From Providencia vermicola (lineage in GTDB: Bacteria > Pseudomonadota > Gammaproteobacteria > Enterobacterales > Enterobacteriaceae): DNA of 64,000 nt. The position numbers and the translations under genes are program-made. The notes under the pieces were generated by a model that was not told where the DNA came from, did not search any database, and was given only the letters and a program-made list of their open reading frames with translations. Shown here one piece after another: positions 19,944-64,000 of the stretch. The first letter of the stretch is position 1, and the number at the start of each line of letters is the position of its first letter. Location of the stretch: NCBI RefSeq assembly GCF_010748935.1, contig NZ_CP048796.1, positions 1,553,001-1,617,000 on the forward strand, given 5' to 3'.

Positions 19944-20041
19944 ATAGTTATACGCCTTTTAGTTATACATAAGGGATATAACTAATGATATAACTAAAAA
20001 TTTTGCTTGTCACTGAACATAACTGACCATTAATACATATA

Positions 20042-20077
20042 AAAAAAGCCTCCAACTATGATATTGAAGGCTTTTTT
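20042..20077 (-). terminator. Terminator downstream of ssrA
   Basis: AAAAAAGCCT and AGGCTTTTTT frame a stem with one mismatch and an 8-base loop, about 30 bases beyond the tmRNA 3' end. After island insertion this element-borne hairpin serves ssrA, and the counterpart at 175-210 may be the original one. Confidence 0.75.
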
Positions 20078-20106
20078 AATCATCACTGAGCATCAATGAT
20101 ACTATA

Positions 20107-20132
20107 TTTGGTGGAGCTGGCGGGAGTTGAAC
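20107..20132. other. Right attachment site (ssrA 3' end)
   Basis: This is the ssrA acceptor-stem and T-arm end, reading TTTGGTGGAGCTGGCGGG onward on the plus strand. ssrA 3' ends are common integrase targets. Integration preserves the gene here and leaves the imperfect direct repeat at 241-266. Confidence 0.75.
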
Positions 20133-20472
20133 CCGCGTCCGAAATTTCTACATCCTCGGTACTACATGCTTAGTCTAGTCTTTAAATTCATTTGCCAGCT
20201 GCGGACAGACACGCCACTAACAAACTATCCTGATTAAATTTAACGCTTCAACCCCAGGCAAGGCATCCACGCGATCTCTTTTAGGTTTGACCTCTCTTGA
20301 TCCCCGTCCTAAGAGCGGAGGCTAGGGAGAGAGGGCTCTATGCAGGTTATTAAGCTGCTAGTGCGTAGTTTTCGTCGTTTGCGACTATTTTTTTGCGGCT
20401 TTTATCGAGGCCAACCGCCCCTCGGCATGCACCTTGGGTTTCGCAAATCCCGTCGAATCCAGAATCAGCCCC
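20109..20472 (-). ncRNA. ssrA: Transfer-messenger RNA (tmRNA)
   Basis: The 364-base RNA has the conserved 5' end GGGGCTGATTCTGGATTCGA and an encoded CCA at the 3' end. The tag reading frame on the minus strand (plus-strand positions about 20350-20382) encodes ANDENYALAA followed by TAA TAA. tmRNA with SmpB rescues ribosomes stalled on broken mRNAs and tags the products for proteolysis. smpB lies just upstream in the same direction. The 3' end doubles as the island attachment site. Confidence 0.97.
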
Positions 20473-47259: not shown

Positions 47260-47520
47260 TTAAATCTTATCAGCGTGATGGATCATCACAAATTTATCCC
47301 ACAGTTGTTCTTGGGTTTCGATATGCTGGGGGTCGGTAATAATAGTATTAGTGATAGGACAAACGGACTGACAGGTCGGTTTATCATAATGGCCAACACA
47401 CTCAGTACAGAGATCTGTGTCGATCTCGTAGATTTCATCGCCCATATAGATTGCATCATTAGGACATTCAGGCTCACACATATCGCAATTGATGCATTTT
47501 TTGGTAATTAATAGTGCCAT
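47260..47520 (-). CDS. yfhL: YfhL family 4Fe-4S dicluster ferredoxin
   Basis: The 86-residue protein has two cluster motifs: CINCDMCEPECP and a second set, CTECVGHYDKPTCQSVCP, the latter with the inserted loop typical of the YfhL/Alvin ferredoxin type. It transfers electrons; partners are not known from this sequence. It is the last core gene before the prophage-like region. Confidence 0.95.
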   Translation of the reverse strand: MALLITKKCINCDMCEPECPNDAIYMGDEIYEIDTDLCTECVGHYDKPTCQSVCPITNTIITDPQHIETQEQLWDKFVMIHHADKI

Positions 47521-48237
47521 ATCAATAGGTTATATATTATTCAGTTAAAGTCAGTGAGTGATATTATTTCAGTATTCGTTATTTTTGGCGATGAGCTGCC
47601 ATTTAATACCGTCTATTTTACATTGTAAAACCTAAATTCATAACACAAAACCGCAACGCATATTCTTTTTATCGATTCAAAAACAGTGAATGTGTGAGCT
47701 TTATACTTAATGTGTTGATATAAATAGGTAATCTCATGCCGACTATCGTATCACAAAAGGGCAAAAGCCCCGATTCTGATGATCATACTGACGCTTTATC
47801 GTATTGAGAATTACCTAAGTTATACACATAACTCACTGTCGTATAAGCATTTTAAAATAGCTCAATAAGCCGCGTCGATGACATGGCGAAAAAGCGCTCA
47901 ATTTCCTATCAATCAACTCTCTCTTTCGCCGAAGAGGTTCCTATCAAATTTTTCCATTATTGTAGCGATCTATCTGGCAGTACTTATGACGACCTTGTGT
48001 TTTTCTCTTTGTATCCTTTCAAGATTATTGCGACCCAAAATAACGTGGCGAACCCCGAATATAAAAAGCCTCGCGTGTTCCCGTCATTGATCGGGGCGAG
48101 GCTTTTGACTGGGGCTTTGTACTCCATAACATGTTGTTACCATCTGGCAGAATACGCCCCTACTGGGGGGATCTTGACCATTAGGAGACGTCAATGTATA
48201 AGCAATACCACCGATTTTTGGTTCATTTTCATGTACT
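47521..48237. other. Boundary region between yfhL and the prophage with no confident gene
   Basis: Several short frames overlap here but none is convincing. Two plus-strand frames from about 47878 and 47883 overlap each other; one has a hydrophobic stretch (SIIVAIYLAVLMTTLCFSL) and the other runs through a strong hairpin. No tRNA is seen, and no repeated att sequence could be recognised. AAAAGCCTCG (48064-48073) and CGAGGCTTTT (48097-48106) form a hairpin that on the minus strand would end the ANR gene transcript. Confidence 0.5.
48063..48106 (-). terminator. Terminator downstream of the ANR regulator gene
   Basis: A 10-bp stem (AAAAGCCTCG / CGAGGCTTTT) reads on the minus strand into TTTTTAT. 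It would end the leftward early transcript of the prophage. Confidence 0.65.
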
Positions 48238-48588: not shown

Positions 48589-50646
48589 TTAATCCTTCCT
48601 GTAGTGATAGGCCTCAAAGCCTCCGGCATTAAGCGGAAGGTCTAAGGCCCATTCGGGGTTGGTGGCAAGTAATTTGGATAAGTGTTCATGGTTGAATGCA
48701 GGGGTATCGAGTGCCTCGGTCAACACCTCATCGTGAATGGTGAGTACAATGTCATAACCGTGATCTTCAATAATTGGCATGTTACTGGCGAGAATATCAC
48801 GGGCAGCGGCTTGGGTTACGTTTTCTACCAATTTCCCGCCATAGGTTTTCAAACGTTGCCATTTGCGGTTATAAGGATTAATCCCCATATAGCTGATTTG
48901 GCCGTTATCATGACGTGGGGCGGGGTAGCAAACCGCGCGGCCTGACGGTAAAACAATACGTAGCCATGCTTTATCCCGTCTAATTTTAAGCTTACGACAT
49001 GGAAAGGTTACCCTTGGTGAAGCAATCGCCCGACGCACGGTATTTTCCAATTCATACCAGAAAGAGACCGTTTCGGGGTGTGCATTGCGCCACATGCGCT
49101 TAAGTGAGTCACAGGTGATAAATACGGTTTCACTGAGACCATAGGTTTTTTGGGTTTCCACCGATTTTCTATACCAACTGATCGCCTCGTGTTTCACTTT
49201 GGGTGGAATGTTAGGCAATGCCGCTTCAGCCAGTTCCTCTAAATTCAGACCATAGGTGAGGGCAAATGTTAAGAATGCGGCGACTCCTCCCCCGTAACCT
49301 AAGCCGAGTTCCATCACTTTACCGATTTGGCGCATATCTTTATTAACCTCTTCTGGACTGATATTGAATGCGCGCGCGTAAGCCAATTTATAGAGATCAG
49401 CGCCGATACCCCTGTCGAATTCGCTAAACGCGTTAATCTTCCACGCTTCACCGGCTAACCAAGCGAGCATACGGCCCTCAATATTGGAAAGGTCGGATAC
49501 TACAAGCTTTTTACCTTCAGGTGCTATAATGCAACCGCGCAAAGCTGAGCTGGTCAGTTGCATAATGTCATCGTAAATGAGGTCGGCACATCCTGCTTTT
49601 AACGCTTCAATACCGTTATCAATGGTCTCTTGGTCAAGTGTTGGCCTTGGTAAATTTTGTGGCTGAAATAATCGACCCGCCCAACGCCCCGTGCGTGAAG
49701 CACCACAAAATTGCAATGTTCCACGTAAACGACCGTCTGAGCTTACGCCATTGATCAGCGCTTTGTATTTACTGGTGCTGGTGCTACTGGCTTGTAATCG
49801 AATGGCTAACAATTCACGTAGAGATAAGGGAATATCAGGATCGTTAATGCGACGTTCTAATGTGCTTTTTTGCATATCAGGCAAATCAACACCAAAAGCG
49901 GCAGAGATATGTTTTAGTAGGGCATCACGCTGAGTTGCCGCCTGAACTTCATTATCTGTCAGTTTTTGGGTGAGTTGGGCTAAACGTTTTTGTTCAACTT
50001 CAACCGCTTTAATCGCGGAGGCGGCTAATTGAATATCCATACACACCCCGCGATCGTTAATTCGTTGGTCACGATGCCAGTGTTTTAATTCACTGTCGCG
50101 GTAGTTCCAATTTGGCAAACGTTGGTGCACTTCGCGCATGGCTTCGATATCTCGCCCTGCATAGGCCACAAAACGCTTCCACTCTTCGGGATGGGTTTTG
50201 CTTGTTGCGCGGCGTAATGCTGAGTTGTTAGGTCGAGGCTTACAAAATAGCTGTATTAATGCTTTACCTTCTTGGTCTTTGGCTTTATCCAAAGGCACAC
50301 CAAGCACGTCACATAACGCCCCTAAAGCACCGGGTAAACCGTGCGCGAGTGCTTGTACCATCGTATCACGCCAACGACTAACATCTATTTTGATACCACT
50401 ATGGTTGAGCATGGTGCGGTCAAAATGGCTGTTATGTGCATAAATTATAGTGTTAGGGTCTGTTAACGCTTGCTGTAATTCAGTAGGCATAGAGGATTTA
50501 TGCGTAATATCCCAAACGTTAACTGAATCGTTGTTTAACGCCCAAGCAAAAAGCATAATTTCAACGGTTTCTGCGTAAGAATGCGTACCGTATTGAATTG
50601 GCTTTTCACTGAATGTTTCGAGGTCTAGCCAGAGTGTATTTTTCAT
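48589..50646 (-). CDS. Phage family A DNA polymerase
   Basis: The 685-residue protein starts with a DnaQ-like exonuclease domain (LWLDLETFS) and ends with the polymerase palm: motif [13 protein letters not shown] near residue 383, motif [17 protein letters not shown] near 445, motif C TIHDEVL near 636. It is like the DNA polymerases of phages that carry DUF2815 and DUF2800 genes beside it, and would replicate the phage genome. It is intact. An oppositely oriented gene separates it from DUF2815. Confidence 0.93.
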
Positions 50647-50665: not shown

Positions 50666-51229
50666 ATGAGTAATAGTAGGGATAGATTGGCACTCGGTAT
50701 TGCAATTTTATCACTAGCGGTATCTGCCGTGGCTGTTTACCTTACTTATTCAGGAAATAAAAGTCAGGAAGCTAACTTTATTCGTGCGGTTCAGCCTCGT
50801 ATTTCTATTGTTCCCCAAGCGGATCCTAATAATAACGGGATAGGTTTTTATTTTTATAATGATGGTCCTGGCGTTGGCTATATTGAAAATTTAATAGTTA
50901 TTGATAAAAACGGTCAGAAATTTGATTTATCTGATACCAGCGAAAAAAGTCCCTCTATAGCGTTAGCGGATATAATTGAATTCAATCAAACTTGTTTAAG
51001 GATGGGGTACCCTAAAAAAGGAAATTCGTTAGCAGTAGATAAAATGGAGCCGTTAATTGCGATTAGTACCCCAATTACCAGAATAGATTGTGCTAAATAT
51101 TTAAATGAAATGGCTCGATACACAAAAAATAAAACATATAACTTTCAAGTTGAAATAATTTACCTTTCAAGTTATGGGAAGAAATACGAATATTCCTTCC
51201 CGTCAAATATAACAAGAGAACTAGATTAG
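50666..51229 (+). CDS. Membrane-anchored hypothetical protein inserted in the replication block
   Basis: The 187-residue protein has one N-terminal membrane segment (LALGIAILSLAVSAVAVYLT) and a soluble remainder with no family recognised. It has a strong ribosome site (AGGAGG). It points opposite to its neighbours and its last nine bases overlap the end of the DUF2815 gene, so it looks like a moron: a gene added to a prophage that may serve the host or exclude other phages. The latter is inference. Confidence 0.7.
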   Translation: MSNSRDRLALGIAILSLAVSAVAVYLTYSGNKSQEANFIRAVQPRISIVPQADPNNNGIGFYFYNDGPGVGYIENLIVIDKNGQKFDLSDTSEKSPSIALADIIEFNQTCLRMGYPKKGNSLAVDKMEPLIAISTPITRIDCAKYLNEMARYTKNKTYNFQVEIIYLSSYGKKYEYSFPSNITRELD

Positions 51230-51772
51230 TGATTCTTCCTCTTCGGCGACGCTTAAGTCGTCGAAGTCATCTTCACTCGCGACACGGGCACCTGCGAAAG
51301 CGTCACCATCACGGAAGAACTGAACACCACCAAGTGAGGCGGAAATACCCTTGCCTTGGTTGTCATAGGCAAAAATGGTGATGGTTGCGTTAACATAACA
51401 ACCGGAGTAAGGGCGATGATCTTGTGTTGTTAACGGAGTGCGGTCACGGTCAATAACCAGCGGTCGCACTTTATTGCTCGCACTGATGTACATATGATCT
51501 GCATAACCGTCATACTCAATCTTTTCATCACCATCACGGAAGTTAAAACGTTTAGAATTACCACGAATTGATTTGAGAATAGCACTGGCTTTTGCCCCCC
51601 ATTTTGCGGTAGCGGCTTGTTTAATCGCGCTTTCAATCGCTTCGATTAAATCAGTACGGTTTTTCGGGATGAGAAACGTTCCGCGGAATTTATAATCACC
51701 TTGCCCGTTAACTTGGGTTGCTTCAAATAAATCAGGGAATGCCAAACGGACGTTGGATAATTTAACTTTCAT
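51221..51772 (-). CDS. DUF2815 family protein (SSB-like)
   Basis: The 183-residue protein has the DUF2815 start VKLSNVRLAFPDLFEATQVN, then YKFRGTFLIPKNRT and, further on, SGCYVNATITIFAYDNQGKG, ending with a very acidic tail (DDFDDLSVAEEEES). The acidic tail and family resemble single-stranded DNA-binding proteins; such proteins accompany family A phage DNA polymerases. It lies between the DUF2800 remnant and the polymerase gene. Confidence 0.88.
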   Translation of the reverse strand: MKVKLSNVRLAFPDLFEATQVNGQGDYKFRGTFLIPKNRTDLIEAIESAIKQAATAKWGAKASAILKSIRGNSKRFNFRDGDEKIEYDGYADHMYISASNKVRPLVIDRDRTPLTTQDHRPYSGCYVNATITIFAYDNQGKGISASLGGVQFFRDGDAFAGARVASEDDFDDLSVAEEEESLI

Positions 51773-51787
51773 ATTGGGGACCTTTAA

Positions 51788-51892
51788 TTAAATGGGATCA
51801 GCGATAAGTGATTTTTCGGTCACATTATCAAAATCATTTTTAGGATTCATAATGAGGGCTGCGGGGAATACAACCACAGGCTTACCTTCAGC
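51788..51892 (-). pseudogene. C-terminal remnant of a DUF2800-type gene
   Basis: The minus strand reads AEGKPVVVFPAALIMNPKND, then FDNVTEKSLIADPI and a stop, with a stop codon just upstream. The GKPVVV... NDFDNV ending and the position directly before DUF2815 match the tail of DUF2800 (PD-(D/E)xK nuclease) genes in similar phage modules. Only this tail is recognisable, so the gene has been lost. The family match is from memory and moderate. Confidence 0.45.
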
Positions 51893-52280
51893 TCAGCGAA
51901 TGAGTGCCGCGAGTTTTGTCTAGCGATGAGGGTTAACTTGCTTAACCAATTTTCGGTTTTGTCAATTTTAGCTTGGCTACCCCATTTATTCGTGACTAGC
52001 TTTAAGCCTTATATTGTGTGGCTTGTATAGAATAGTTCTTTCCTACGGCGAGTTACCAAACGGTGTTAACATGCGGGCTTATTGCCTCGGCTATTTCAGC
52101 ATTAACTTATGGGCTATCTGTTTTATTTAACGGATATGACCTAGCCCTGAGCTATTTTCTTATCGATTTTGTAAAACAGATTCAACCAGCGTATGAGCGA
52201 CGGTACTTGCTAAAGTCCATTCAGGTTTCGTATTGAGTACCGTTAATTCTAAGGATAAGTTCCTGCTGCATATCAGGGAG
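51893..52280. other. Gap left by the lost DUF2800 gene
   Basis: No frame of useful length is open in this 390-base stretch on either strand, and no operator or terminator is clear. It probably contains decayed or unrelated sequence from the deletion that removed most of the DUF2800 gene. Confidence 0.5.
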
Positions 52281-52982
52281 TTAACTTTCTAAGGCTTTTT
52301 TCGCCAGCGCAACCACTTCGGCTAATTTATCTTCGGGCACTTGACCTAATTTTTTAGCACCAAACTGAGTAAGAATTTCAACCGCGTTATTGCGATAGCC
52401 GCCTTTTGCTAACTGCAAAATGAGTTTTTCAGCTTGCTCAAACAGCACTTTAGGGTCGGTATCTTCTGGCGTTTTGCTCGTGACCTTACCGGCCCTGAGA
52501 AGTTCGATAGCAAATTCGCGACGTTCAGTAATACCGACGATATCAGACCAATGGCGTAGCATTTCCAAACACAGGTCGTGGATGGTGTTATTTGGTAAGT
52601 TGGTGACTTCCTCTAAATTCACTAGCGCCATATAGAGGGCATCGGCTTGGGTATTTCGATGTTTACCCGTAGCAGCTATGGTTGCATTGACTTTATCAAG
52701 TTGTTCAGTCGTGAGTTCGTCAAAGTTACCGTTAAATAATACCGCTAAGACAGCGAGTTGCTCTAAATTGAGGGTATGAATATCAATCGGGTTAATGACA
52801 GAGTGTGTGTCTATTTTAGCAGTTTCTTTTTTACTGATTGTTTTTGTTTCAGCTTTGCTCAGTTGAGATTCTGCATCTAGTGTTAATGTGGTATGAGGCT
52901 GTGCGACTGCGCCTGATTGCATTGTGGCAATTAATTGGCGCATGACTTCGGTGTTTTCTTTAATTGCTAGTTCGAGACTCAT
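52281..52982 (-). CDS. Hypothetical phage protein in the replication block
   Basis: The 233-residue protein has no recognised family. It is mostly helical and charged, with a short coiled-coil-like N-terminus (MSLELAIKENTEVMRQLIAT) and a lysine/threonine linker around residues 45-65. It is in the early leftward operon, ten bases after a small basic ORF. A DNA-binding or accessory replication role is possible, but is not shown. Confidence 0.65.
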   Translation of the reverse strand: MSLELAIKENTEVMRQLIATMQSGAVAQPHTTLTLDAESQLSKAETKTISKKETAKIDTHSVINPIDIHTLNLEQLAVLAVLFNGNFDELTTEQLDKVNATIAATGKHRNTQADALYMALVNLEEVTNLPNNTIHDLCLEMLRHWSDIVGITERREFAIELLRAGKVTSKTPEDTDPKVLFEQAEKLILQLAKGGYRNNAVEILTQFGAKKLGQVPEDKLAEVVALAKKALES

Positions 52983-53265: not shown

Positions 53266-53667
53266 ATGATTGTGAAATTACTTACTGCTGCTGCGATCTT
53301 GTTCTCAGCATCTGGCATGGCTACAAATCAGTGCAAGCCGGATGATGTTTGTATTGTATTTAGGCCAGACTCTATAGAAGAGAAGGGCTTCTCTGTTGAG
53401 TGTGAAAATATTTACTTGGCTGAGTTAAAAGATGACTTGTACGACAGCAAGAAATTGATTGTAAAAATGACAAACCCCATAGACATAAAAAATAAATCGT
53501 CACTAACCGGCTATAGTTTTGGGGTTATCAATATCCTTAACCATAACTATGGCGGAGCAAGAATTGACATTAGCCTTTCAGATAATATTTATTTATCCAT
53601 AGATGAATCTCAAGTCAATGCCGCAAATGCACTAATAAGTTGCGTTGATTCGCTTAAAGCTAAGTAG
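53266..53667 (+). CDS. Secreted or periplasmic hypothetical protein
   Basis: The 133-residue protein has a signal peptide (MIVKLLTAAAILFSASGMAT) and three or four cysteines that could form disulfides, so it is expected in the periplasm. It points opposite to the early operon around it. The family is unknown. Like 50666-51229 it has the look of an added accessory (moron) gene. Confidence 0.65.
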   Translation: MIVKLLTAAAILFSASGMATNQCKPDDVCIVFRPDSIEEKGFSVECENIYLAELKDDLYDSKKLIVKMTNPIDIKNKSSLTGYSFGVINILNHNYGGARIDISLSDNIYLSIDESQVNAANALISCVDSLKAK

Positions 53668-54243: not shown

Positions 54244-54271
54244 ACAATACTATAAAAATAGTATTTGTAAA
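54244..54271 (-). promoter_or_regulatory. Leftward early promoter with repressor operator
   Basis: On the minus strand TTTACA (54266-54271) and TATTGT (54244-54249) are 16 bases apart. The spacer is part of a 20-base inverted repeat (AATACTATAAAAATAGTATT, 54246-54265) that shares its arms with the operators beside the repressor gene. Binding there would block the early promoter. The layout is that of PL with an operator. Confidence 0.65.
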
Positions 54272-54417
54272 CAGTTAAAATTGTATTTTAGTCTGTGAGA
54301 TACTTATCTATTTGTTTTATAAATTAATTAAACGAGTAAAAATGATATGGAGATGTGGCAAAGAGTCTTCTTGGCTGCTTGCAAGAAAACTCTCTTTGCA
54401 GGAATTGGGGGGAGAAA

Positions 54418-55041
54418 TTACCTTTTTCGACGGTAAATTCGGTGTTCCACCATGACACCAATAAGCGCAATTTGGTAGTCGTGGCTATTGAGTGTAGGAT
54501 AATCGGGATTTAACGGAACAAGCTCAAACTCGCCGGTACCAATGCCTAGCGGGCGATACTTCTTAAATGTTCCCTGATTTCCGCCATTTTTTGCAAAAAC
54601 GAATTCGCCAGGATTAGGGCAAAGTTCCGTGTCGATAACAACGATATCCCCCTCTTTAAACTCAGGGTTCATGCTGTCACCTTCTATTCTTAGTGCGAAT
54701 GCGTTTTCACTAATATCATCATCAACTAAGATATATTCAAAATTTCCTTCATGATCAGTAATGGGGTCTGCATCCTTAAATAATCCGGCCTGAACGTAGC
54801 TTAATAGGGGAACTCTACGAGAGTTTACCTCTGCCATTGGCATAATGCTTTTACCATTGAGTAGCCACTCTGGGTGACACTGTAAAGCTTTAGCCAGTTC
54901 TATGATATTTCTTGGTTTTCGTGTCCTACCGTTTTCAATCGACTCGACAGATTGCTGGCTGATATTTGCGCGTTCAGCTAATTCAGATTGGGTTAAATTA
55001 AGTGCTAACCTACGCTGTCGTACCCTTGTTGCTAGTGACAT
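54418..55041 (-). CDS. S24-family phage repressor (CI/LexA-like)
   Basis: This is the lysogeny repressor. The N-terminal helix-turn-helix (LTQSELAERANISQQSVESI) is followed by a LexA-type self-cleavage domain with cleavage pair Ala85-Gly86 (YVQAGLF), nucleophile Ser123 (EGDSMNPEF) and a general base lysine around Lys160 (GTFKKYR). It should be cleaved under RecA activation and so links the prophage to DNA damage. It is divergent from the Cro-like gene. Confidence 0.93.
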   Translation of the reverse strand: MSLATRVRQRRLALNLTQSELAERANISQQSVESIENGRTRKPRNIIELAKALQCHPEWLLNGKSIMPMAEVNSRRVPLLSYVQAGLFKDADPITDHEGNFEYILVDDDISENAFALRIEGDSMNPEFKEGDIVVIDTELCPNPGEFVFAKNGGNQGTFKKYRPLGIGTGEFELVPLNPDYPTLNSHDYQIALIGVMVEHRIYRRKR

Positions 55042-55077: not shown

Positions 55078-55144
55078 TTAATACTAATTTTATTGTATTT
55101 GACAAACAGTTTTTGTGGTGATGAAATACTACGAATATTGTTAA
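55078..55144. promoter_or_regulatory. Repressor/Cro operator-promoter region
   Basis: Two operator-like sites share AATACTA at the left and TTGT on the right: 55080-55099 and 55125-55144, similar to that at 54246-54265. The leftward repressor promoter (TTGTCA, TATTAA, 16 bases apart, at 55100-55105 and 55078-55083) has the first site in its spacer. The rightward -35 TTGACA is at 55099-55104; its -10 (about 55122-55127) is poor. An ACAAA-5-TTTGT repeat lies at 55102-55116. Confidence 0.6.
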
Positions 55145-55156
55145 AGGGGGTCGTTA

Positions 55157-55369
55157 ATGACACTTGGTAATAGAGTAAAACAAAGACGTAAGCTACTTGG
55201 TTATACGCAGCACGATTTAGCTGAAGAAGTAGGTTTAACGCAACAAGCGATCAATAGAATAGAGAGTAATGTCATTTCTCGACCTCGATTTATCCTTGAA
55301 TTAGCACAAGTTTTACAGTGTGACCCGGAGTGGTTGTTAAAGGGCTCATCAGTTTCAACGAAGGTTTAG
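55157..55369 (+). CDS. Cro-like helix-turn-helix regulator
   Basis: The 70-residue protein is a single XRE domain (LGNRVKQRRKLLGYTQHDLA, then EEVGLTQQAINRIESNV and ILELAQVLQCDPEWLL) closely related to the N-terminus of the adjacent repressor. Its position as the first rightward gene, divergent from the repressor, is that of Cro. It precedes the helicase gene by three bases. Confidence 0.9.
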   Translation: MTLGNRVKQRRKLLGYTQHDLAEEVGLTQQAINRIESNVISRPRFILELAQVLQCDPEWLLKGSSVSTKV

Positions 55370-55372
55370 CCT

Positions 55373-57610
55373 ATGCGGATCACCTATTCAGTAGGGCGCT
55401 CCGCTAGGGATAATCGTCCTCAATTAGCGCAAGCGCCTAGCTTTGATGAGTATAAGTTAGCTATCAAAGCGCTTAAAAAAACGATTAATGTGTCTCCAAA
55501 TGACTCAATAGAGGCCATGCGTGAGAAAAAGGCACGTCTTAATTATATTTGGGGTGCGTTGATCAATAAAACCAAAGGGCGTAGTGCGGCTAATGCCGGT
55601 CATCGTCACGTTCTTTGGTTAGATATGGATGGCTGCTCTTTAGATGCTTGGAACCGGTTAACCGGTGTCCTGAGTATGTACCGCTGTTTTTGTTATACGA
55701 CGGCTAGCCATGAACACCCAACCGCCAATAATGAGCAACGCTGGCGCATCGGCATTATGCTAGATAACAGCGTGACAGCTCACATGTATGCCGAATTAGG
55801 TCCACGTGTTGAACAAGAGATCATGGACTGTTACCAGCTGTTAAGCGATGAGCCTGTCAAATGGGATCGCTCTGTTTATGAGCCATCTCATATGGTATTT
55901 GCCCCGCATGAAGGCGCTGAATTCTTAGAGTTCGATGGTGCGGTGATTAATGTTGATACCGTTCTGGCATCCAATCTCGTCTTGCACAGTAATGCTGTTG
56001 ATGGCTCTGATTTTAATACAGTATCGGGCGATGACCTAACGCGTTTAGTCGATTTAAGCCACATTGATAGTCACACTTTTGAGGATATTCGCTCTGCGCT
56101 GTGGCATCCGCGGGTATTACGCTTTGCCGAAAATTACCCAACTTGGGTTGATATGGGTAATCGTTTGGCCTGGTTCAAAGATACCGATTATGAAGATAAG
56201 GCCAAAGCGTTATGGGTTGAATGGTCCGCTAAAGCAGATAAGGGCGATGAAGAGGCTGCAATAAATAAGTGGTCTCAACTCCGTGCTGACCGCACCGGCT
56301 ACCAAGCGATATTCACGTTAGCCCAAAAAGAAGGGTGGATTAACCCTGGTTGTGAGCGTTTAAAAACAGCGGTTGTAACCGTAGACGATTTTGAGGCGAT
56401 CCAAGTCGTTAACAAGCCATTGCCTTTACCTTCATTTAAGCGTGATAAATATGGCCGGATAGAATCTACCATTGATAATGTGGCTAAAGCGGTCATGCAC
56501 CCCGACTTTATCGATATCGAAATTCGCTTTGATACCTTTCGCGATGAAATTATGTTCGCGCCAACCGGAACCAATGAATGGCAACAGTTTAGCGATGCGG
56601 ACTATTCGCGTTTACGTATTGCGATGGAAAAGCGCGATTTTAAACCTGTAGGGCGTGAGCTGATCCGTGATGTGGTTTTACTTGCTGCGGAAGAGAATCA
56701 ATTCGACTCGGCTATCGAGTGGCTGACTAACCTAGAGTGGGATGGCGTTAGGCGTGTTGAGACGTTTTACCACACGCATTTTGGTGCGGAGAACACACCT
56801 TATACCCGCGCTGTTTCTCTCTATATGTGGACGGCGATGGCAGGGCGTGTTTTGGTACCGAGGATTAAAGCTGACATGGTGCCTATCTTAATTGGTGCTC
56901 AAGGATGTGGGAAGTCCACGGGGGTCGCGGCGCTATGCCCTGATCCGACGTTCTTTACAGAAATCTCTTTTGCTGAAAAAGATGATGACTTAGCACGTAA
57001 AATGCGCGGTCGTTTAGTCGCTGAAATTGGCGAGCTACGCGGACTGAATACGAAAGAGCTTGAATCCATCAAAGCCTTTGTCACCCGCACACATGAGAAC
57101 TGGATCCCAAAGTTTAAGGAGTTTGCCACACAGTTCCCGCGTCGTTCATTAATTATCGGTACCACCAATGAGGACGAGTTCTTAGCCGACCGTACGGGGA
57201 ATCGCCGTTGGCTTCCGGTCGAGGTGATTAAGGTCAACGTTGATGATATTCGGCGTGATGTTCTTCAACTGTGGGCCGAAGCCCGCGAAATGTTTAAAGC
57301 GGATGGTGTCCAATATGAAGCCGCTGAATATTTAGCCTCACACATTTATGAAAAATACACCATTAAAGACGCTTGGTTAGAAATTATTGAACGTTGGTTG
57401 GATGAGCCTGATTTGATGACGGGTGAAAAACCGCGAACGCGTGGTTTTTTACGTGCTGCCGACGTTTTGCGAGAAGCGTTGAATCTCGATCCTAAAAATA
57501 TCTCAAGACGCGAACAAATGCGAATTAGCAATGTTCTGCAAAATTGTGGGTATAAATCGATGCGTAAATTCCTTGAAGGTAAGCAGCAACGTGTATTTAT
57601 TTGCGAATAA
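55373..57610 (+). CDS. VapE-type phage primase/helicase
   Basis: The C-terminal half is the VapE-type P-loop domain: Walker A GAQGCGKSTG near residue 510, then EIGELRGLNTKELESIKAFV, then NEDEFLADRTGNRRWLPVEV. The N-terminal 280 residues, with the LDMDG segment, resemble an archaeo-eukaryotic primase-like region but are less certain. At 745 residues it would unwind, and perhaps prime, phage replication with the DNA polymerase at 48589. It is followed by iteron-like repeats. Confidence 0.85.
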   Translation: MRITYSVGRSARDNRPQLAQAPSFDEYKLAIKALKKTINVSPNDSIEAMREKKARLNYIWGALINKTKGRSAANAGHRHVLWLDMDGCSLDAWNRLTGVLSMYRCFCYTTASHEHPTANNEQRWRIGIMLDNSVTAHMYAELGPRVEQEIMDCYQLLSDEPVKWDRSVYEPSHMVFAPHEGAEFLEFDGAVINVDTVLASNLVLHSNAVDGSDFNTVSGDDLTRLVDLSHIDSHTFEDIRSALWHPRVLRFAENYPTWVDMGNRLAWFKDTDYEDKAKALWVEWSAKADKGDEEAAINKWSQLRADRTGYQAIFTLAQKEGWINPGCERLKTAVVTVDDFEAIQVVNKPLPLPSFKRDKYGRIESTIDNVAKAVMHPDFIDIEIRFDTFRDEIMFAPTGTNEWQQFSDADYSRLRIAMEKRDFKPVGRELIRDVVLLAAEENQFDSAIEWLTNLEWDGVRRVETFYHTHFGAENTPYTRAVSLYMWTAMAGRVLVPRIKADMVPILIGAQGCGKSTGVAALCPDPTFFTEISFAEKDDDLARKMRGRLVAEIGELRGLNTKELESIKAFVTRTHENWIPKFKEFATQFPRRSLIIGTTNEDEFLADRTGNRRWLPVEVIKVNVDDIRRDVLQLWAEAREMFKADGVQYEAAEYLASHIYEKYTIKDAWLEIIERWLDEPDLMTGEKPRTRGFLRAADVLREALNLDPKNISRREQMRISNVLQNCGYKSMRKFLEGKQQRVFICE

Positions 57611-57805: not shown

Positions 57806-57911
57806 TTGCTCAATGAGTTATTTTTACTTGCTTCAGTTAACCAAATGCTTTTTGTCGTGATCGATGCCTGAAATTGGGGCAATTGGTACAGAAAAACACA
57901 GGTCGGAAACT

Positions 57912-58343
57912 ATGAACAGAGATATACAGAAAATTTTGACACATTGGGGCGGCTGGTCTGCTGGTAATCATTATGCTGCGTTAGGTTGGTCAACAGTGGC
58001 GGCAGGCTTTAGCGATTATTCACCGAGATCTAGTGGTAATAGGCTGTCGTGTAGTGATGAGGACGGTTTAGTCATTGACTTATGTGTCGCTAAACTTTCA
58101 ACCGTCGGTATGGAACGTGAGCGCGCTTATCTTGAAGAATATTACATCAAGGGCAAATCTAAACGTGCCGTTGGGCGTAAGTTCAAAATCCGAGAAGATG
58201 AAGTGCGAAGGCAGATGCAAATTGCTGAAAGTTTTGTTTTGGGTTTCTTAGAAGCACTTAATATTCAATTGGATATAGATATTTTGTATAAAAAACACTC
58301 AATCGATACGCTGAAATTAGTGCGACCGCAAAATGTGTGTTAA
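57912..58343 (+). CDS. Phage late antiterminator, Q-like (DUF1133-type)
   Basis: The 143-residue protein has the Q-type features MNRDIQKILTHWGGWSAGNH, YSPRSSGN and the helix-turn-helix-like EEYYIKGKSKRAVGRKFKIR, then EDEVRRQMQIAESFVLGFLE. It should let RNA polymerase pass terminators in the late region. The ATG at 57912 follows GGAAA with good spacing. A terminator and a promoter-terminator pair follow, as expected for the Q target. Confidence 0.8.
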   Translation: MNRDIQKILTHWGGWSAGNHYAALGWSTVAAGFSDYSPRSSGNRLSCSDEDGLVIDLCVAKLSTVGMERERAYLEEYYIKGKSKRAVGRKFKIREDEVRRQMQIAESFVLGFLEALNIQLDIDILYKKHSIDTLKLVRPQNVC

Positions 58344-58372: not shown

Positions 58373-58405
58373 AAAGGCCCTCAGTTTGAGGGCCTTTTCT
58401 TTTTG
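58373..58405 (+). terminator. Terminator after the Q-like gene
   Basis: AAAGGCCCTC and GAGGGCCTTTT pair around a 5-base loop and are followed by CTTTTT, 30 bases after the stop of the Q-like gene. Confidence 0.9.
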
Positions 58406-58652: not shown

Positions 58653-58971
58653 GCTTTCTAGGCAATGAAAACTCTATTTGCTAGCTTCTATCTTGCACAT
58701 AGCGGCATTAAAGCGAGTAGGGTTCTCATTGTGGGGAAAATTAGCCGCAGGTGACTGATGCTTGATAAGGCATGGCGCAAACTCAAACTGACGAAAGACT
58801 GCCTTCACAATACCTATAACACGCTGAAAAAGTTCTGGTAGCACGGAACAGCCCGCATGAGCTAAATCATGCTTCAAATAATCACTTCTTCTTTTATCCC
58901 CTCAAATGAGGGCGAAAAAACAGAAATCCCCAAAAACTTTTAATTTCGGGCACTCCGTAGGGGGTGGGATT
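58653..58971. other. Leader of the lysis cassette, no clear gene
   Basis: The only frames here are very short (about 30 residues or fewer) and not supported. A CCCTCAAATGAGGG palindrome at 58899-58912 recurs inside the hairpin at 60649-60668. The holin start follows at 58972. Confidence 0.5.
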
Positions 58972-59241
58972 ATGCGTATGGATAAATACAGCAACGCAGC
59001 CTACGGCAGTGCTGGGCTTACAGCATTCTTTGCAAGCTTATCGCTGTATGAGTGGGGCTTTATTATCGGGATGGCGTTTAGCATCATTCTTGGACTCGCC
59101 ACCTTCTTTATGAATCGACGAGAGCAGCGAAAACGAACGCGTTTATTTGAAGAACTGGTACATAAAACCGATCCACAAAATCCCTCTGCGACAGCACGAA
59201 TAGCGGCTGAACTTATGGCAAAAGCGCCTAAGGATATCTAA
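58972..59241 (+). CDS. Class II holin (S21-type) with possible dual start
   Basis: The protein forms inner-membrane pinholes that trigger lysis. From ATG 58972 it begins MRMDKYSNAAYGSAGLTAFF, with two short membrane segments (SAGLTAFFASLSLYEWGFII and the following MAFSIILGLATFF) and a basic C-terminal tail. The second ATG two codons later suggests a long and a short product, as in S21 where the longer acts as antiholin. A ribosome site GGGG with G at 58961-58968 lies before it. The stop overlaps the endolysin start. Confidence 0.85.
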   Translation: MRMDKYSNAAYGSAGLTAFFASLSLYEWGFIIGMAFSIILGLATFFMNRREQRKRTRLFEELVHKTDPQNPSATARIAAELMAKAPKDI

Positions 59242-59711
59242 TGTCACTCAAACAAAAATTAACTGTGCTTGTAGGTGCAGGGGCATCGGCTATCGCTTTA
59301 ACCGTGATTGCGCATTTTGAAGGGGTTAGATATGAGCCTTATGAAGATGTCGGCGGGGTATTAACGGTCTGCTATGGGCATACAGGGAAAGACATTGTTC
59401 CTAATAAAGTTTATTCAAAAGAAGAGTGCAACGAGCTGTTAGAACGGGATTTCATGAGAACCAAACAGCAGGTCGACCGGCTAATCAAAGTTCCCATCAA
59501 CGAACACACAAAAGCGGCACTATATTCATTTGCTTTCAATGTGGGTACCGGCGCATTCGCTAAATCAACCATGCTTAAAAAGCTTAATGCAGGTGATCAA
59601 TATGGCGCTTGTGAAGAGTTAAAAAGATGGGTTTACGCGGGTGGCAAAGTGTGGCGTGGGTTGGTTAGTCGCCGAGAAGTGGAGGCCGCTATATGTCATG
59701 GAAAGCTGTAG
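59241..59711 (+). CDS. SAR endolysin, lysozyme family (GH24)
   Basis: This is a muramidase with an N-terminal signal-anchor-release segment (LTVLVGAGASAIALTVIAHF) that keeps it inactive in the membrane until the pinholin collapses the potential. The catalytic set is HFEGVRYEPYEDVGGVLTVC, in which Glu27 and Asp/Thr are expected, with YGHTGKDI after it. At 156 residues it matches R21-type enzymes. It overlaps the holin by one base. Confidence 0.93.
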   Translation: MSLKQKLTVLVGAGASAIALTVIAHFEGVRYEPYEDVGGVLTVCYGHTGKDIVPNKVYSKEECNELLERDFMRTKQQVDRLIKVPINEHTKAALYSFAFNVGTGAFAKSTMLKKLNAGDQYGACEELKRWVYAGGKVWRGLVSRREVEAAICHGKL

Positions 59712-59866
59712 TGGTTATTGCTGGTTTTGTTATTTATTTCATGGTGTTCATTGTTTCGGGCGTATACCTGCTTACTGACAACACGTGCGCTATTGACAAA
59801 ACCAGTTTAGAAAAACGTTGCTTGAAGGCATTCGAACATTACAAAGGGCGACAAGTTAACTTTTAA
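59693..59866 (+). CDS. Small membrane protein in the lysis cassette (57 aa)
   Basis: A 57-codon ORF begins MSWKAVVVIAGFVIYFMVFI, continues VSGVYLL and ends in a basic tail with two cysteines. GGAGG lies about ten bases upstream within the endolysin end. It overlaps the endolysin by 19 bases and is 20 bases before Rz. One membrane segment with the tail outside fits a lysis accessory protein; no family is recognised. Confidence 0.7.
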   Translation: MSWKAVVVIAGFVIYFMVFIVSGVYLLTDNTCAIDKTSLEKRCLKAFEHYKGRQVNF

Positions 59867-59886
59867 TTTTCTAGACGGTAATTGTC

Positions 59887-60336
59887 ATGAATACAGCGAG
59901 AGCATTGCTATTTATTGCAGCGTGGGTGGCCGTATGGGGGATGTGGAAGCAGCATGAAAGGATAGAGGAATTACACACCCAAAATGCTAGGTTGCTGGCT
60001 GAACTTACAGAGCAAATCAAAATCAATGAAGATTTCCAAGAGCGCGTCCAATCCCTTCATAAGCTGGATATTAAGCATACTCAGGAATTAGCCAATGCAC
60101 AGATTGAAATTGACCAGTTGCGTATTGCTGCTGAGCGTCATCCTGAGCGGGTGTACATCAAAGCCAGTTGTAAAAAATCCGAAGGCACTACCGCCTCCGG
60201 CTTGGATGATGCAACCACCGCCCGACCTGATGACGCCGCTATCCGAAATTATTGGTTACTCAGAGAGCGAATTGCGGAGTCAACTCAAATCATCTTAGGT
60301 TTGCAAGATTACATAAAAATGCAGTGTATCCAATAA
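59887..60336 (+). CDS. Rz-type inner-membrane spanin
   Basis: The i-spanin joins inner and outer membranes during lysis. It has an N-terminal membrane anchor (ALLFIAAWVAVWGMW) and a long periplasmic coiled coil (ERIEELHTQNARLLAELTEQ, then LANAQIEIDQLRIAAERH) with a C-terminal cysteine pair. The gene for its partner is nested in the other frame at 60095. Confidence 0.85.
   Translation: MNTARALLFIAAWVAVWGMWKQHERIEELHTQNARLLAELTEQIKINEDFQERVQSLHKLDIKHTQELANAQIEIDQLRIAAERHPERVYIKASCKKSEGTTASGLDDATTARPDDAAIRNYWLLRERIAESTQIILGLQDYIKMQCIQ
60095..60298 (+). CDS. Rz1-type outer-membrane spanin lipoprotein
   Basis: The 67-residue lipoprotein lies wholly inside the Rz gene in another frame. Its lipobox is LSGC (Cys20) and it is proline rich (ALPPPAWMMQPPPDLMTP), as o-spanins are. 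It would pair with the Rz product to fuse the membranes. Confidence 0.85.
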   Translation: MHRLKLTSCVLLLSVILSGCTSKPVVKNPKALPPPAWMMQPPPDLMTPLSEIIGYSESELRSQLKSS

Positions 60337-60808
60337 CCAATATGCAAGGTTTTACCCATGTCATTCGGTGAGTGGTATGTAACCTTGTGGCACCCAGTGA
60401 AGTGAGATACCAGCAGATAAACGCCAATTATCCCAAATTTTGTTTTCTCACCTAAATTCATCGGGCTAAGCGGTGGGAGATAGCTCAATACAATGAGTGT
60501 GGCGATTCGACATGTGCTTCCCGTCAAATATCAGTTGCTAGGTTAATCATCTCAAATCAAAGGGAATTCAGTCGATACGACGAACACAGACGCTGACCTA
60601 TTTGGCCCAACCGCCTGACTACTGTTTGATTAACGCCATCTTTTTTACGCCCTCAAATGAGGGCTTTTGGGTATACACGATATTCAAGCCATACAGCGTG
60701 GCTTATCACCCGGTTTTCAGTTGTTAACGGTCGAAACATGATGTGCGGGTGATACGAATTGAAAATGAAATGGTTGTAAATCAATGTTTTGTATAGAGAC
60801 AGAAATTT
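60337..60808. other. Gap between lysis and tail genes where head genes are expected
   Basis: No frame resembling terminase, portal, protease or capsid is present. A hairpin (GCCCTC-AAAT-GAGGGC with TTTT, 60649-60668) acts as a terminator of the lysis transcript. TATCACCCG (60704-60712) and CGGGTGATA (60746-60754) form a second stem. The only readable frame on the minus strand is weak. Confidence 0.7.
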
Positions 60809-61324
60809 ATGAAAGATTATGATGTTGAAATAGCTATTCAAAAACAAATCTTGATGCAGCTGAAAGAAGTTGGCATCGAGATCCCCGTTAAAGCGGGTTT
60901 TCCGTCTATCAAGCAAGACCGTGAAGATAATATGGTGGTCTTTTTTCCCATAAATGAACACGGTCACGGTTGGCAAAGTAGAACCTATCACGTTCAAGGT
61001 AATAAAGCGGGTCACCAAGAACATCAGTTATCTGAAAAAACGTATCAAGTTCAAGTGTTTGTGACTCAAATAGAACATTATACGTCCACTGATATCGCGG
61101 CTATTGTCAGAATGATTGTCAATTCGCTACCTTTTGCCACCACGCTGAGAAAGCAAGGTATTGGCGTGCAGCGAGCAACGTCAGTTCGCCAACCTTACTC
61201 TGTGAACGAACATGGTGATTACGAACAAAATCCTTCATTTGATTTTAATGTGACCTTTAAACGTTCTCTTTTCCCTGATACAGCTGCCATTAGTGCACTT
61301 TATCCTGATATCCATCGCATATAA
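60809..61324 (+). CDS. Gateway/neck-type tail protein (LIC_12616-like)
   Basis: The 171-residue protein has the pattern DYDVEIAIQKQILMQLKEVG, then the QVQVFVTQIE and YEQNPSFDFNVTFKR blocks, typical of the small head-tail joining or tail-terminator proteins that precede DUF3383 genes. The assignment rests on order and fold resemblance from memory. It would cap the tail at the neck. It is the first structural gene here. Confidence 0.65.
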   Translation: MKDYDVEIAIQKQILMQLKEVGIEIPVKAGFPSIKQDREDNMVVFFPINEHGHGWQSRTYHVQGNKAGHQEHQLSEKTYQVQVFVTQIEHYTSTDIAAIVRMIVNSLPFATTLRKQGIGVQRATSVRQPYSVNEHGDYEQNPSFDFNVTFKRSLFPDTAAISALYPDIHRI

Positions 61325-61334
61325 GGTTTTTACT

Positions 61335-62822
61335 ATGCCAATTAAACAAACTCGATACGTTGATATCGCATCGGCGGTTGTTGGCGCGTCTTCTGTTCCG
61401 ATGCGTAAACTAACTGCTCGTTTATTTTCTACCAATCCTAAAATTCCAGCGGGTAAAGTGCTTGAATTTGCAAATGGTCAAGTCGATGAATTTCTGGGTG
61501 TTGATTCTCCAGAAGCGCATTTTGCTCGACAATATTTTAGCTATGTCAGTCCTGCTCCCGTGAGTAAGCCAAAAGAATTACAAATTGCGTCTTATGAACC
61601 AGTAGGGCGGATGCCTACACTGTTTGGTGTTAAAGCGGCAGCGTTAGCGGACTTAAGCGCGATTGCCGATGGCACTCTCTCTGTCACTATCGGTACTGTG
61701 ACCAAAAACTATAAAGACATTGATTTATCGGAAGCAAAATCTTATGCGGATATTGCGTCCATCATTCAAACGAAACTCAATGCAGAAAAGGAACCGCAAT
61801 TTTCCAGCAGTTACTTGACGTTTAATGCATTAGAGAGTGCTTTTGAACTCAGTGGAGGAGTGCAAGAGAGTGCTTCTATCCACGTTGATTATTCCGTGCT
61901 GGCTGATGCCATGGGGCTGTCTTCAGGTAGCGCATCTGAAGGTAACCCTGCACAAACACCGCTGGAAGCCTTTATTGTGGCAGAGCAAGTGTCGGACTCA
62001 TTTGGGAGTGCCACCTTTTTAGCTGAACTGACGTTAGAGCAAGCAGTGCCATTAGCGCAGTATGTATCGGGTGAGAACGTCAAATACCAGTTACACATTA
62101 ACGTTAGTGAAAAGCAGGTTGAAGATTTCAGCGCGGCTTTAATGGACACTGCGTCTGTGGGCTTGAACCTAAAAACGGACAACGTTCACTTTATTCAATC
62201 GTTACCTATGGCGGTGATGGCGGCGACCGATTATGACCGGACTAACGCCACGACAAACTATATGTTTCGCCAACTCGGAGTGACATTCCCAGCACAAGTG
62301 ACCACGGATAAAGCGGCTGATCGATTCGATAAGTTGCGTGTGAATTATTACGGTGAAACCGCGATAGCAGGCTCACAAATTCGTTTTTATCAGCGAGGCT
62401 TCTTATGCGGTGGAGCATCAAACCCATTAGATATGAGTGTGCACGCCAATGAACAGTGGTTAAAAGCCTATATTGCTCAGCAGTGGTTTAGCTTGCTGTT
62501 GGCAACACGCGGTGTTCCAGCGAATAAAGACGGTGAAGCACGAGCGTTAATGGTGATTGCTGGTGCGGTCACAAAGGCGATTAATAATGGCACGATTTTA
62601 GCCGGGAAAACATTGACAGATGCGCAAAAACTCGCCATTGCGGACGCATCCGGTGATGACCTCGCATGGTATGACGTACAAGATAAAGGCTATTGGTATA
62701 ACGCACAGATTGTTGAAAATACAGGAAAAAGTGGTCTGCCTGAGTATGTCATGAAATACGTATTGATTTATGGCAAAGGCGATTGGGTTCGCAAAGTCGA
62801 AGGTTCTCATAATTTAGTCTAG
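61335..62822 (+). CDS. DUF3383 family tail sheath protein
   Basis: The 495-residue protein matches DUF3383, a sheath-type family of contractile tails. Visible blocks are YVDIASAVVGASSVPMRKLT, ARQYFSYVSPAP and a C-terminal WYDVQDKGYWYNAQIV. The sheath contracts to drive the tube through the cell envelope. ATG 61335 follows a weak ribosome site; the previous gene ends ten bases before it. It is followed directly by the tube gene. Confidence 0.88.
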   Translation: MPIKQTRYVDIASAVVGASSVPMRKLTARLFSTNPKIPAGKVLEFANGQVDEFLGVDSPEAHFARQYFSYVSPAPVSKPKELQIASYEPVGRMPTLFGVKAAALADLSAIADGTLSVTIGTVTKNYKDIDLSEAKSYADIASIIQTKLNAEKEPQFSSSYLTFNALESAFELSGGVQESASIHVDYSVLADAMGLSSGSASEGNPAQTPLEAFIVAEQVSDSFGSATFLAELTLEQAVPLAQYVSGENVKYQLHINVSEKQVEDFSAALMDTASVGLNLKTDNVHFIQSLPMAVMAATDYDRTNATTNYMFRQLGVTFPAQVTTDKAADRFDKLRVNYYGETAIAGSQIRFYQRGFLCGGASNPLDMSVHANEQWLKAYIAQQWFSLLLATRGVPANKDGEARALMVIAGAVTKAINNGTILAGKTLTDAQKLAIADASGDDLAWYDVQDKGYWYNAQIVENTGKSGLPEYVMKYVLIYGKGDWVRKVEGSHNLV

Positions 62823-62831
62823 GAGTAGAAC

Positions 62832-63284
62832 ATGCATGATGTATCTGCAACCGGTTTGAGTTTTATTATTCAAGCCAACAAAACATTTCCCACAGGGATT
62901 TTAATTACCGCCTTTGCTGACGATGCGGATCCGCTGGATTTACCCGCGGTCGATATCGCACAAACGGGCATGGATATTAACGGTAACTTGGTGAGTTGGT
63001 CCACTCCGACACCACAAACCGTCACAATTAACGTCGTAGCAGGTAGTGAAGAAGATCAGAATCTGTCTATTTTGCTCGAGGCTAATACCGCTAAAAAAGG
63101 GCGTCGACATGCTGGGGATATCATTACCTTTGTGGCGTCTTATGGTGATGGTTCAACGGTCACGGCGCGTAATGGCAAAATTACCAATGGGAGCCGTGGT
63201 AACTCAGCGGCTTCCGCAGGGCGTTTGAAATCCAAAGCCTATACCTTTGTGTTTCAGGATTTCGATAGCACGCGAGTACGTTAA
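62832..63284 (+). CDS. DUF3277 family tail tube-type protein
   Basis: The 150-residue protein resembles DUF3277, the tube protein that accompanies DUF3383 sheaths: LSFIIQANKTFPTGILITAF, VDIAQTGMDINGNLVSWSTP and a YTFVFQDFDSTRVR ending. It would polymerise into the inner tube within the sheath. The ribosome site GGAG lies seven bases before the start. Confidence 0.85.
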   Translation: MHDVSATGLSFIIQANKTFPTGILITAFADDADPLDLPAVDIAQTGMDINGNLVSWSTPTPQTVTINVVAGSEEDQNLSILLEANTAKKGRRHAGDIITFVASYGDGSTVTARNGKITNGSRGNSAASAGRLKSKAYTFVFQDFDSTRVR

Positions 63285-63299
63285 TTTATTTCAAATTAT

Positions 63300-63321
63300 G
63301 GCGGGGGATCCCGCCTTTTTT
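63300..63321 (+). terminator. Terminator between tube and tail-chaperone genes
   Basis: GGCGGG and CCCGCC pair around GGAT and are followed by six T residues. It would lower transcription of the later tail genes after the abundant tube protein, a frequent arrangement. Confidence 0.85.
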
Positions 63322-63334
63322 ATTGGTGTTCACT

Positions 63335-63876
63335 ATGCTAATTAAGCCTAAAGAAGTTGCTATCAAAGATGTTGATGGTATTGAAAAATCATTTGTAATT
63401 AGTCGACTACCCGCTACGGTTGGGCGCGAAATCTTAGCTAAGTACCCGTTATCCAATGCACCTAAAATTGGTAATTACGAGGTCAGCAAAGAAGCCATGC
63501 TGAAGATGATGGCATACGTATGTGTGGTTATCGACGGTGAAGAAATACCGCTTAAAACACAAACGCTCATTGATAATCATGTGACTGACGGCGAATCCCT
63601 GATCCGCTTAGAGTTGGAAATGCTGAAATATAACACCAGTTTTTTCGGGAACGACGGGAGTCAAGGTTTCCTCCACTTCCTGCTCAGCAAGGTAAGCGGT
63701 TCACTCCCGTCGATTATAAAAACGCTGATGGGTTCTTTGCCGTCATCGTCAGTGAACGCCTCGCCACCTTCACAGAGCTCAAAACCTCAATAGATTTAGA
63801 AGAAGCAATGGACCTATGGGAAATTGCCATTACTAACCGTTATAACGAAGCCCTTGCGGCTTCAAAGGATCGCTAA
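63335..63876 (+). CDS. Tail assembly chaperone with -1 programmed frameshift
   Basis: From ATG 63335 the zero frame runs to 63793 (152 aa; MLIKPKEVAIKDVDGIEKSF, then ISRLPATVGREILAKYPL). At 63640-63646 the heptamer T TTT TTC occurs in the right frame, and the -1 frame downstream is open to 63876 (DYKNADGFFAVIVSERLATF, then DLEEAMDLWEIAITNRYNEA). A slip would give a fusion of about 180 aa, as in lambda G/GT and other tail chaperones. The end coordinate is that of the frameshift product, and the tape-measure start overlaps it. Confidence 0.8.
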
Positions 63877-64000
63877 TGTCATTAATGGATACCTTTGTGC
63901 AGGTCTTTGAGTTTGATACAAGGCAAGCGAATGAGGCATTTAAAAAAGTGCAACGTTCGACCGATGACATTATTGATGCCATGAAACAAACTCAACAGGC
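63876..64000 (+). CDS. Tail tape-measure protein, partial
   Basis: Only the N-terminus is in the window: MSLMDTFVQVFEFDTRQANE, then AFKKVQRSTDDIIDAMKQTQ. The pattern of a short helical start followed by repeats, and the position after the tail chaperone with a one-base overlap, are those of tape-measure proteins. The gene continues beyond the window. Confidence 0.75.
   Translation, partial: MSLMDTFVQVFEFDTRQANEAFKKVQRSTDDIIDAMKQTQQ

Follow-up and report, generated by a model that had tools for sequence, protein, structure and literature searches.

A contractile tail locus without head genes in Providencia vermicola: a candidate phage-to-tailocin conversion

R-type tailocins such as the pyocins, carotovoricin and xenorhabdicin are chromosomally fixed loci that carry contractile tail, baseplate, fibre and lysis genes and no head or packaging genes. 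Tailocins are described as lacking capsid and replication genes in passages of PMC12090994 and PMC13195805, and a reference title in PMC13280938 gives xenorhabdicin as P2-like. We analyzed a 64,000-nucleotide stretch of the Providencia vermicola chromosome (hereafter the window; G000:C1:1553001-1617000, from a 4.43 Mb genome in two contigs) along with the following 35 kb, in which an element located between acpS and mltF resembles the R-type tailocins in all of these features of content and placement. We propose, with a probability of about 0.75, that the acpS-mltF element descends from a temperate contractile phage, that its head and integrase genes were lost long ago and that it now works like an R-type tailocin locus. 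The observed basis of the proposal is the gene content, the relics of lost genes, purifying selection on the tail and the repeated occurrence of such elements. A literature search, with subscription journals mostly outside its coverage, found no paper on such a Providencia or Morganella tailocin locus. Below, labels beginning with G denote genomes (G000 is the source genome) and those beginning with L denote loci (L005 is a stretch that reaches downstream of the window).

Remains of a head module between lysis and tail genes

The lysis cassette lies on the forward strand and comprises a holin (58906..59241; phrog_1350, with PF16080 slightly above the cut-off), a lysozyme/endolysin (59241..59711; phrog_7, PF00959), an Rz spanin (59887..60336; phrog_13) and, nested in Rz, an Rz1 open reading frame (ORF; 60095-60298) with a lipobox-like LSGC. 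The tail genes, on the same strand, start with the gateway or tail terminator protein (60809..61324; PF22756 E217_gp29, E 7e-48) and the contractile sheath (61293..62822; phrog_205, E 2.4e-48). The tail tube (62832..63284), whose role was assigned by position and whose match, phrog_2420, is named tail fiber protein there, and the tail assembly chaperone (63323..63793), assigned by position and without a PHROG match, occupy the same places in headed relatives. An 837-aa tape measure starts at 63876, runs past the window end (63876..64000) and is completed at about 66389 in L005. Dit-like, plug, hub, spike, wedge, J-like, DUF2612 and fibre proteins follow, with the forward-strand tail fibre gene (L005:11896-13398, about 70896-72398 in window numbering) at the end of the operon. 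The contractile tail, baseplate and fibre genes are complete and intact and the lysis cassette is present, confirming the initial annotation, which had called the sheath, tube, chaperone and tape-measure genes intact.

No intact gene can be recognised in the 472 bp between the end of Rz (60336) and the start of the gateway gene (60809). The ORF listing contained no forward-strand ORF of at least 60 aa within 60337-60808; two reverse-strand ORFs (72 and 123 aa) overlap the interval. The same interval in headed relatives harbors terminase, portal, protease, capsid and neck genes. The first recognisable element in the 472 bp is a weak one, 40 bp resembling the sequence that follows Rz in L188 (82.5%, E 6e-4). 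It is followed on the forward strand by the decayed 3’ terminus of the major capsid gene (60433..60603; residues ~272-342, tblastn E 6e-13, 45% over 71 columns) with two in-frame stops plus gaps, by a 29-nt intergenic stretch from the head module (60640..60668) with a terminator-like hairpin at 60649-60664, and by a 3’ remnant of the last neck gene (60676..60798; 70.5% at the nucleotide level over 129 columns, E 5e-5), which aligns to L026:9359-9487 within the neck gene of that locus. The 29-nt stretch is identical at 29/29 positions to the post-capsid stretch in 12 headed loci listed and at 27-28/29 in others. It is perfectly preserved amid the decayed head remains and is perhaps a Q-controlled terminator before the tail genes.

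Over 170 bp, the capsid relic shares 58-68% identity with 20 functional capsid genes, and the functional genes, from Providencia genomes and the nearest viral contigs, are 85-99% alike among the comparisons listed. In a FastTree analysis of the 170-bp segment, where the tree position is weak, the relic had a branch length of 0.49, compared to at most 0.14 for the functional tips. The remains call for at least two deletions plus much decay. An assembly error is disfavoured, since the same Rz-gateway junction, with the capsid relic, occurs in an independent metagenome contig (L135).

Two further genes of the element are relics. The N-terminus of an integrase (47694..47953, forward strand) was recovered by tblastn with the acpS-side integrase of G016 (60% over 35 aa and 39% over 44 aa, E 3.8e-8), and the G015 integrase as query gave only E 0.8; the full-length integrases of G015 and G016 both match phrog_1. 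A DUF2800 PD-(D/E)XK nuclease gene, 428 aa long and complete in headed L239 and L240, survives in the window (51791..52136, reverse strand) as two fragments, one matching at 46% over 61 aa and the other at 55% over 38 aa. The integrase and the head and packaging genes of a functional temperate phage are thus present as relics only.

We searched for head genes elsewhere using ten proteins of the headed relative L047 at E 1e-3. Only the capsid relic matched in L004 and L005, and nothing matched in L006. Genome-wide, the L047 capsid protein matched only the capsid relic (E 1.7e-6), and the L047 terminase and portal proteins, both of which do match headed relatives, had no match in G000. The terminase family PF03354 had no match genome-wide either; unrelated head families were not sought at that scale. 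The initial annotation had supposed that head genes might lie after the window, and none of the tested head genes was present when the sequence beyond 64000 was read. Its claim that no intact terminase, portal or capsid gene lies between Rz and the gateway gene was borne out by the ORFs and the relic-only content. Judged from the sequence, the head, neck and packaging genes are truly gone from the locus, and the loss appears old, since the capsid, neck, integrase and DUF2800 genes are all decayed relics. These relics contradict a recent loss, which had been argued from the intact replication and repressor genes. Of the two origins put forward, the relics and the genes that headed relatives carry in the same interval support a loss from a prophage, and the intact tail and lysis genes without a head module support a step toward a contractile tailocin.

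Headed and headless relatives

In a sample of 24 Providencia genomes, 11 had some match to the sheath and nine a close one. The head module lies between the lysis and gateway genes in six of the nine (G001, G011, G013, G014, G015 and G018) and is missing in three (G000, G008 and G010), G010 retaining 3/10 head proteins. A family-level draw of 392 genomes, with a sheath cut-off of E 1e-100, gave 12 genomes with the sheath; within the short loci examined, four of them (G000, G227, G296 and G359) show no neck gene beside the gateway gene and the other eight show at least one. Among the best 80 of 154 viral-contig loci, which were selected by similarity and give no unbiased rate, 13 are without the head module (L135, L148, L162, L164-L169, L205, L206, L208 and L210), with three head proteins left in L162 and the capsid relic in L135. 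At least 9/10 head proteins are present in 65 of the 80, and L204 and L209 are cut short yet show neck genes. The headed L239 and L240 have the layout DNA polymerase, ssDNA-binding protein (SSB), DUF2800 nuclease, cI/cro, helicase, Q, lysozyme, terminase (small subunit PF03592) and portal, which we take as ancestral.

A tree of six tail proteins with 39 rows (L209 left out, L039 and L204 unlabelled) requires five changes between the headed and headless states, and the starred branches alone make four of these unavoidable. Grouping all headless forms in a single clade was rejected (approximately unbiased test, p-AU 1.1e-90), and a clade of G000 plus G008 was not (p 0.12). The tree itself is blind to gain versus loss; we read the changes as losses because decayed relics are present. 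The Proteus mirabilis locus L038 forms one headless clade with G296 and G359, in which L038 and G359 have common left neighbours (an 897-aa gene at ~90% and a 218-aa gene at 98%; the G296 contig ends too soon). The Morganella-type L166, L169 and G227 have their left-hand genes in common (93-99.7%), with one gene broken up in G227. Two IMG/VR genome ids of the Morganella type (2846609383 and 2630968756) and two of the Proteus type (2858365878 and 2855083472) each contain both a headed and a headless element.

The sheath match in L038 of P. mirabilis ATCC 29906 (L038:10025-11510) covers 73% with a separate ORF over the start, and the gene looks split; L038-type sheath matches are nearly whole in L208 and L210. 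We also considered a shorter tape measure in the headless forms and rejected it, as there was no trend (483-837 aa headless, 538-841 aa headed), with two headed outliers (21 and 451) that probably reflect misread or broken genes and L039 and L204 uncounted.

Selection on the retained genes and competing explanations

We compared the tail genes by the ratio of nonsynonymous to synonymous substitution rates (dN/dS), dropping pairs with saturated synonymous sites; several remaining dS values exceed 1, making the ratios rough. Between the window and headed G014 the ratio ranged from 0.015 (tube) to 0.127 (tape measure), with 0.186 for the fibre, and headed G014 against headed G001 gave 0.029-0.122 for the nine tail genes with a defined ratio. 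The tail genes therefore appear to remain under purifying selection similar to that between headed pairs. A faster evolution of the gateway gene in headless lineages was tried and rejected, since gateway/sheath difference ratios did not clearly separate the headless (2.1-3.3, 7 pairs) from the headed pairs (0.4-4.0, 16 pairs). In that comparison we placed no reliance on two Proteus-type headless hub values (0.74 and 0.67) or a headed sheath value (L032, 0.80), which look as if taken from misaligned or truncated genes.

The element retains an intact 685-aa phage DNA polymerase (48589..50646, reverse strand; phrog_17, HDEV motif), an intact Gp2.5-like SSB (51221..51772, reverse strand; phrog_112) and an intact 745-aa VapE-type primase-helicase (55373..57610, forward strand; phrog_256, Walker A GAQGCGKS). 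We simulated 500 copies each of the polymerase and helicase genes without selection. At 0.1 substitutions/site, 0/500 copies of either gene were stop-free; the stop-free share was 0.8% (polymerase) and 0.2% (helicase) at 0.05/site and about 15% at 0.02. If the capsid relic dates the loss, then selection kept the polymerase and helicase genes. It is also possible that the replication genes stayed open through a short neutral spell, or that the early region was exchanged after the loss.

Several observations weigh against our proposal. Over ten tail genes the window branch carries 122 amino-acid changes, compared to 61 on its headed sister; other trios gave 131 versus 56 and 130 versus 65, headless G010 and G008 behaved likewise, and a headed-headed comparison gave 19 versus 33. 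The ratio of nonsynonymous to synonymous changes (N/S) on the window branch is 1.0 for the gateway gene and 1.23 for Dit, versus 0.39 and 0.34 on the sister. In Providencia rettgeri RB151 (G008) most of the gateway gene and the Rz end are lost, and headless elements can therefore simply decay. In addition, the DNA polymerase, SSB and helicase genes, which a tailocin locus would not be expected to keep, are intact, and the tailocin description in the relevant passage of PMC12090994 excludes replication genes. We withhold strict R-type tailocin membership and call the element transitional, because the replication genes remain and killing is predicted. The branch counts suggest that constraint on the tail persists but is looser, or that the tail is adapting. 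A neutral N/S ratio is about 2-3. The window branch has an N/S of 0.59-0.69 for the helicase (sisters 0.24-0.33) and 0.40-0.49 for the polymerase (sisters 0.14-0.24), and 15 nonsynonymous changes in the SSB compared to 0 on its sister; for the polymerase and SSB, G016 served as the sister, and its own element is a remnant in which the stretch examined has no tail genes. Constraint on the replication genes thus seems relaxed, yet below neutrality.

The same observations bear on an alternative, which we consider improbable, that the element is a cryptic prophage under erosion whose tail genes have merely not decayed so far. The relics of the integrase, DUF2800, capsid and neck genes, the doubled amino-acid changes of the window branch, the raised N/S in the replication genes and the more eroded state of RB151 all agree with it. 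However, open reading frames persist for the tail, baseplate, lysis, repressor and replication genes despite a capsid relic at ~0.49 substitutions/site, no simulated polymerase or helicase copy survived stop-free at 0.1/site, and the tail dN/dS is close to that of headed phages. The element could instead be defective but mobile, a tail-making satellite that uses the heads and packaging of a helper phage; the kept replication genes and the presence of headed relatives in the genus agree with this explanation, but the integrase that such a satellite would carry is a relic, the neck genes, which connect head and tail, are gone, and no other cognate capsid, terminase or portal, nor a PF03354 terminase, was found in the G000 genome, so that we regard it as very improbable. 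One recent deletion in a functioning prophage, to which we give equally little credence, would explain the intact repressor, replication, lysis and tail genes; it is contradicted by capsid and neck remains that are separated, diverged, interrupted by stops and require at least two deletions, and by the decay of the integrase and DUF2800 genes as well.

Under our proposal of a former phage working as a tailocin locus, DNA damage would trigger self-cleavage of the S24-type CI repressor, and the Q protein would, by antitermination, carry transcription of the late operon past the hairpin behind its own gene and the one in front of the tail genes. Tails would then assemble with their baseplate and fibre and be capped by the retained gateway protein; the holin, lysozyme and spanins would lyse the producer cell; and the released tails would attach to related cells and depolarise them. 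A change in the lipopolysaccharide (LPS) of the producer, made by the right-end glycosyltransferase, may spare sister cells. We infer particle assembly, SOS release, killing and self-protection. A further, tentative and rather doubtful suggestion is a ‘replicating tailocin’ without excision or packaging, in which the selected polymerase, SSB and primase-helicase would copy the locus in place, giving a higher dosage and a larger tail burst, and in which the nearly invariant CI, which would also govern an unrelated-type headless cluster in sister species, would be a dedicated tailocin switch. The element may represent a phage-to-tailocin conversion caught part-way, with scraps of the lost genes recognisable and the kept genes clearly listed; in a family with at least four headed/headless changes (read as losses), the order of losses and the value of the retained replication genes are testable.

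Switch, flanks and comparison with known systems

The CI repressor (54418..55041, reverse strand) has helix-turn-helix and S24 peptidase domains (PF01381, PF00717). The window and G010 proteins are identical at 204/207 aa, yet 91 codons differ synonymously; this is strong constraint for a phage repressor. A Cro-like regulator (55157..55369, forward strand; phrog_8/phrog_4) lies to its right. Two operator-like palindromes (54247..54286) were placed left of cI by position only, and a right operator-like palindrome (55081..55098) has the sequence ATACTAATTTTATTGTAT, the sole exact pattern match in the 4.43 Mb genome (control 0). This site is retained with 0-1 pattern changes in G010, G011, G020 and headed L239 and L240, together with the adjoining TTGACA box. 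Operator-like matches across the window were not above chance (8 observed, mean 4.75), and we consequently relied solely on the unique exact match and on how well it is conserved.

CI had a match at E 1e-20 in 10/24 Providencia genomes and is at least 89% identical only in G000, G010, G011 and G020, all four in headless clusters; the G019 protein is 60% identical with no tail within the 18 kb examined, and the remaining matches are 37-39%. Six of eight viral-contig CI loci are in headless clusters (two being L135 and L162) and two, at 84%, in headed prophages. The clusters in G011 (L227:5046-20000) and G020 (L228:3936-18458) are a second, compact headless contractile type, seen also in viral contigs L235-L238. 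A conserved protein near cI in the window (52281..52982, reverse strand; phrog_6784) has a 44% homologue beside cI in these compact clusters.

A Q-like antiterminator (57864..58343, forward strand; phrog_79) is followed by a terminator-like hairpin at 58373-58397. The left end of the element begins beyond acpS, where the likely left attachment site (47477..47535, forward strand) is the 3’ end of the adjoining gene, presumably yfhL. This sequence recurs at both ends of the G015 headed prophage (L129; L128, 91.5% over 59 bp), and no convincing matching right attachment site was found in the window. At the right end, a reverse-strand GT8 glycosyltransferase gene (~72498-73508; PF01501, PF08437) is followed by host genes up to an mltF-like gene with SLT and SBP domains. 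Ten proteins right of the tail in relatives, examined with Pfam, included two glycosyltransferases (GT52 in G014 and GT2 in G015); the other eight were DUF6056 (G011), tail fibre assembly (G227), two without hits and four other proteins.

The early-region ORFs 50666-51229 (187 aa) and 53266-53667 (133 aa) are possible cargo; neither had a PHROG match and the first had no Pfam match. Another kind of remnant, L130 of G016, lies between mltF and acpS and has an integrase, SSB and DNA polymerase, with no tail or head genes found in the stretch examined. A phrog_1 integrase beside the tmRNA gene at window 18735-20472 may mark a separate island, and a neighbourhood of this kind seems, judged by ORF sizes only, to adjoin the headed prophages of G013 and G014 as well. 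A second holin-lysozyme-Rz cassette (G000:C1:2759285-2759611; L002, L060), 93%, 94% and 80% identical to that of the window, respectively, probably belongs to another prophage.

Among the known systems close to the window locus are headed prophages of the same family in Providencia, Morganella and Proteus (for example G001, G015, L025 and L239), which have the same tail order and, from L025 to G014, a sheath 78-92% identical. L239 also has the cI-cro-helicase-Q-lysis order, and the G015 prophage occupies the same acpS-mltF site. In contrast to the window, the headed prophages have their terminase, portal, protease, capsid and neck genes in the lysis-gateway interval, and that of G015 also has a full-length integrase. 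The APSE phages of Hamiltonella, which are short-tailed, were compared by the primase-helicase alone (69-71% identical). Carotovoricin is akin to phage ZF40, whose sheath gave no significant BLAST match to that of the window; the G011 compact-cluster sheath is 25% similar to it (E 1.6e-6). The compact clusters of G011 and G020 resemble the window in a CI that is 89-91% identical, a near-identical operator, and Q and lysis genes followed by a contractile tail, and differ in a sheath only ~23-25% identical; no head genes were found between their lysis and tail genes and no replication genes were seen. Unlike the R-type tailocins, the window locus keeps DNA polymerase, SSB and primase-helicase genes, and its tail proteins match E217/Pam3-type Pfam families. 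Like the xenorhabdicin loci, as far as these are described in a portion of PMC13280938, it has a glycosyltransferase near the fibre gene, and the GT8 gene would fit the self-resistance through LPS change proposed there.

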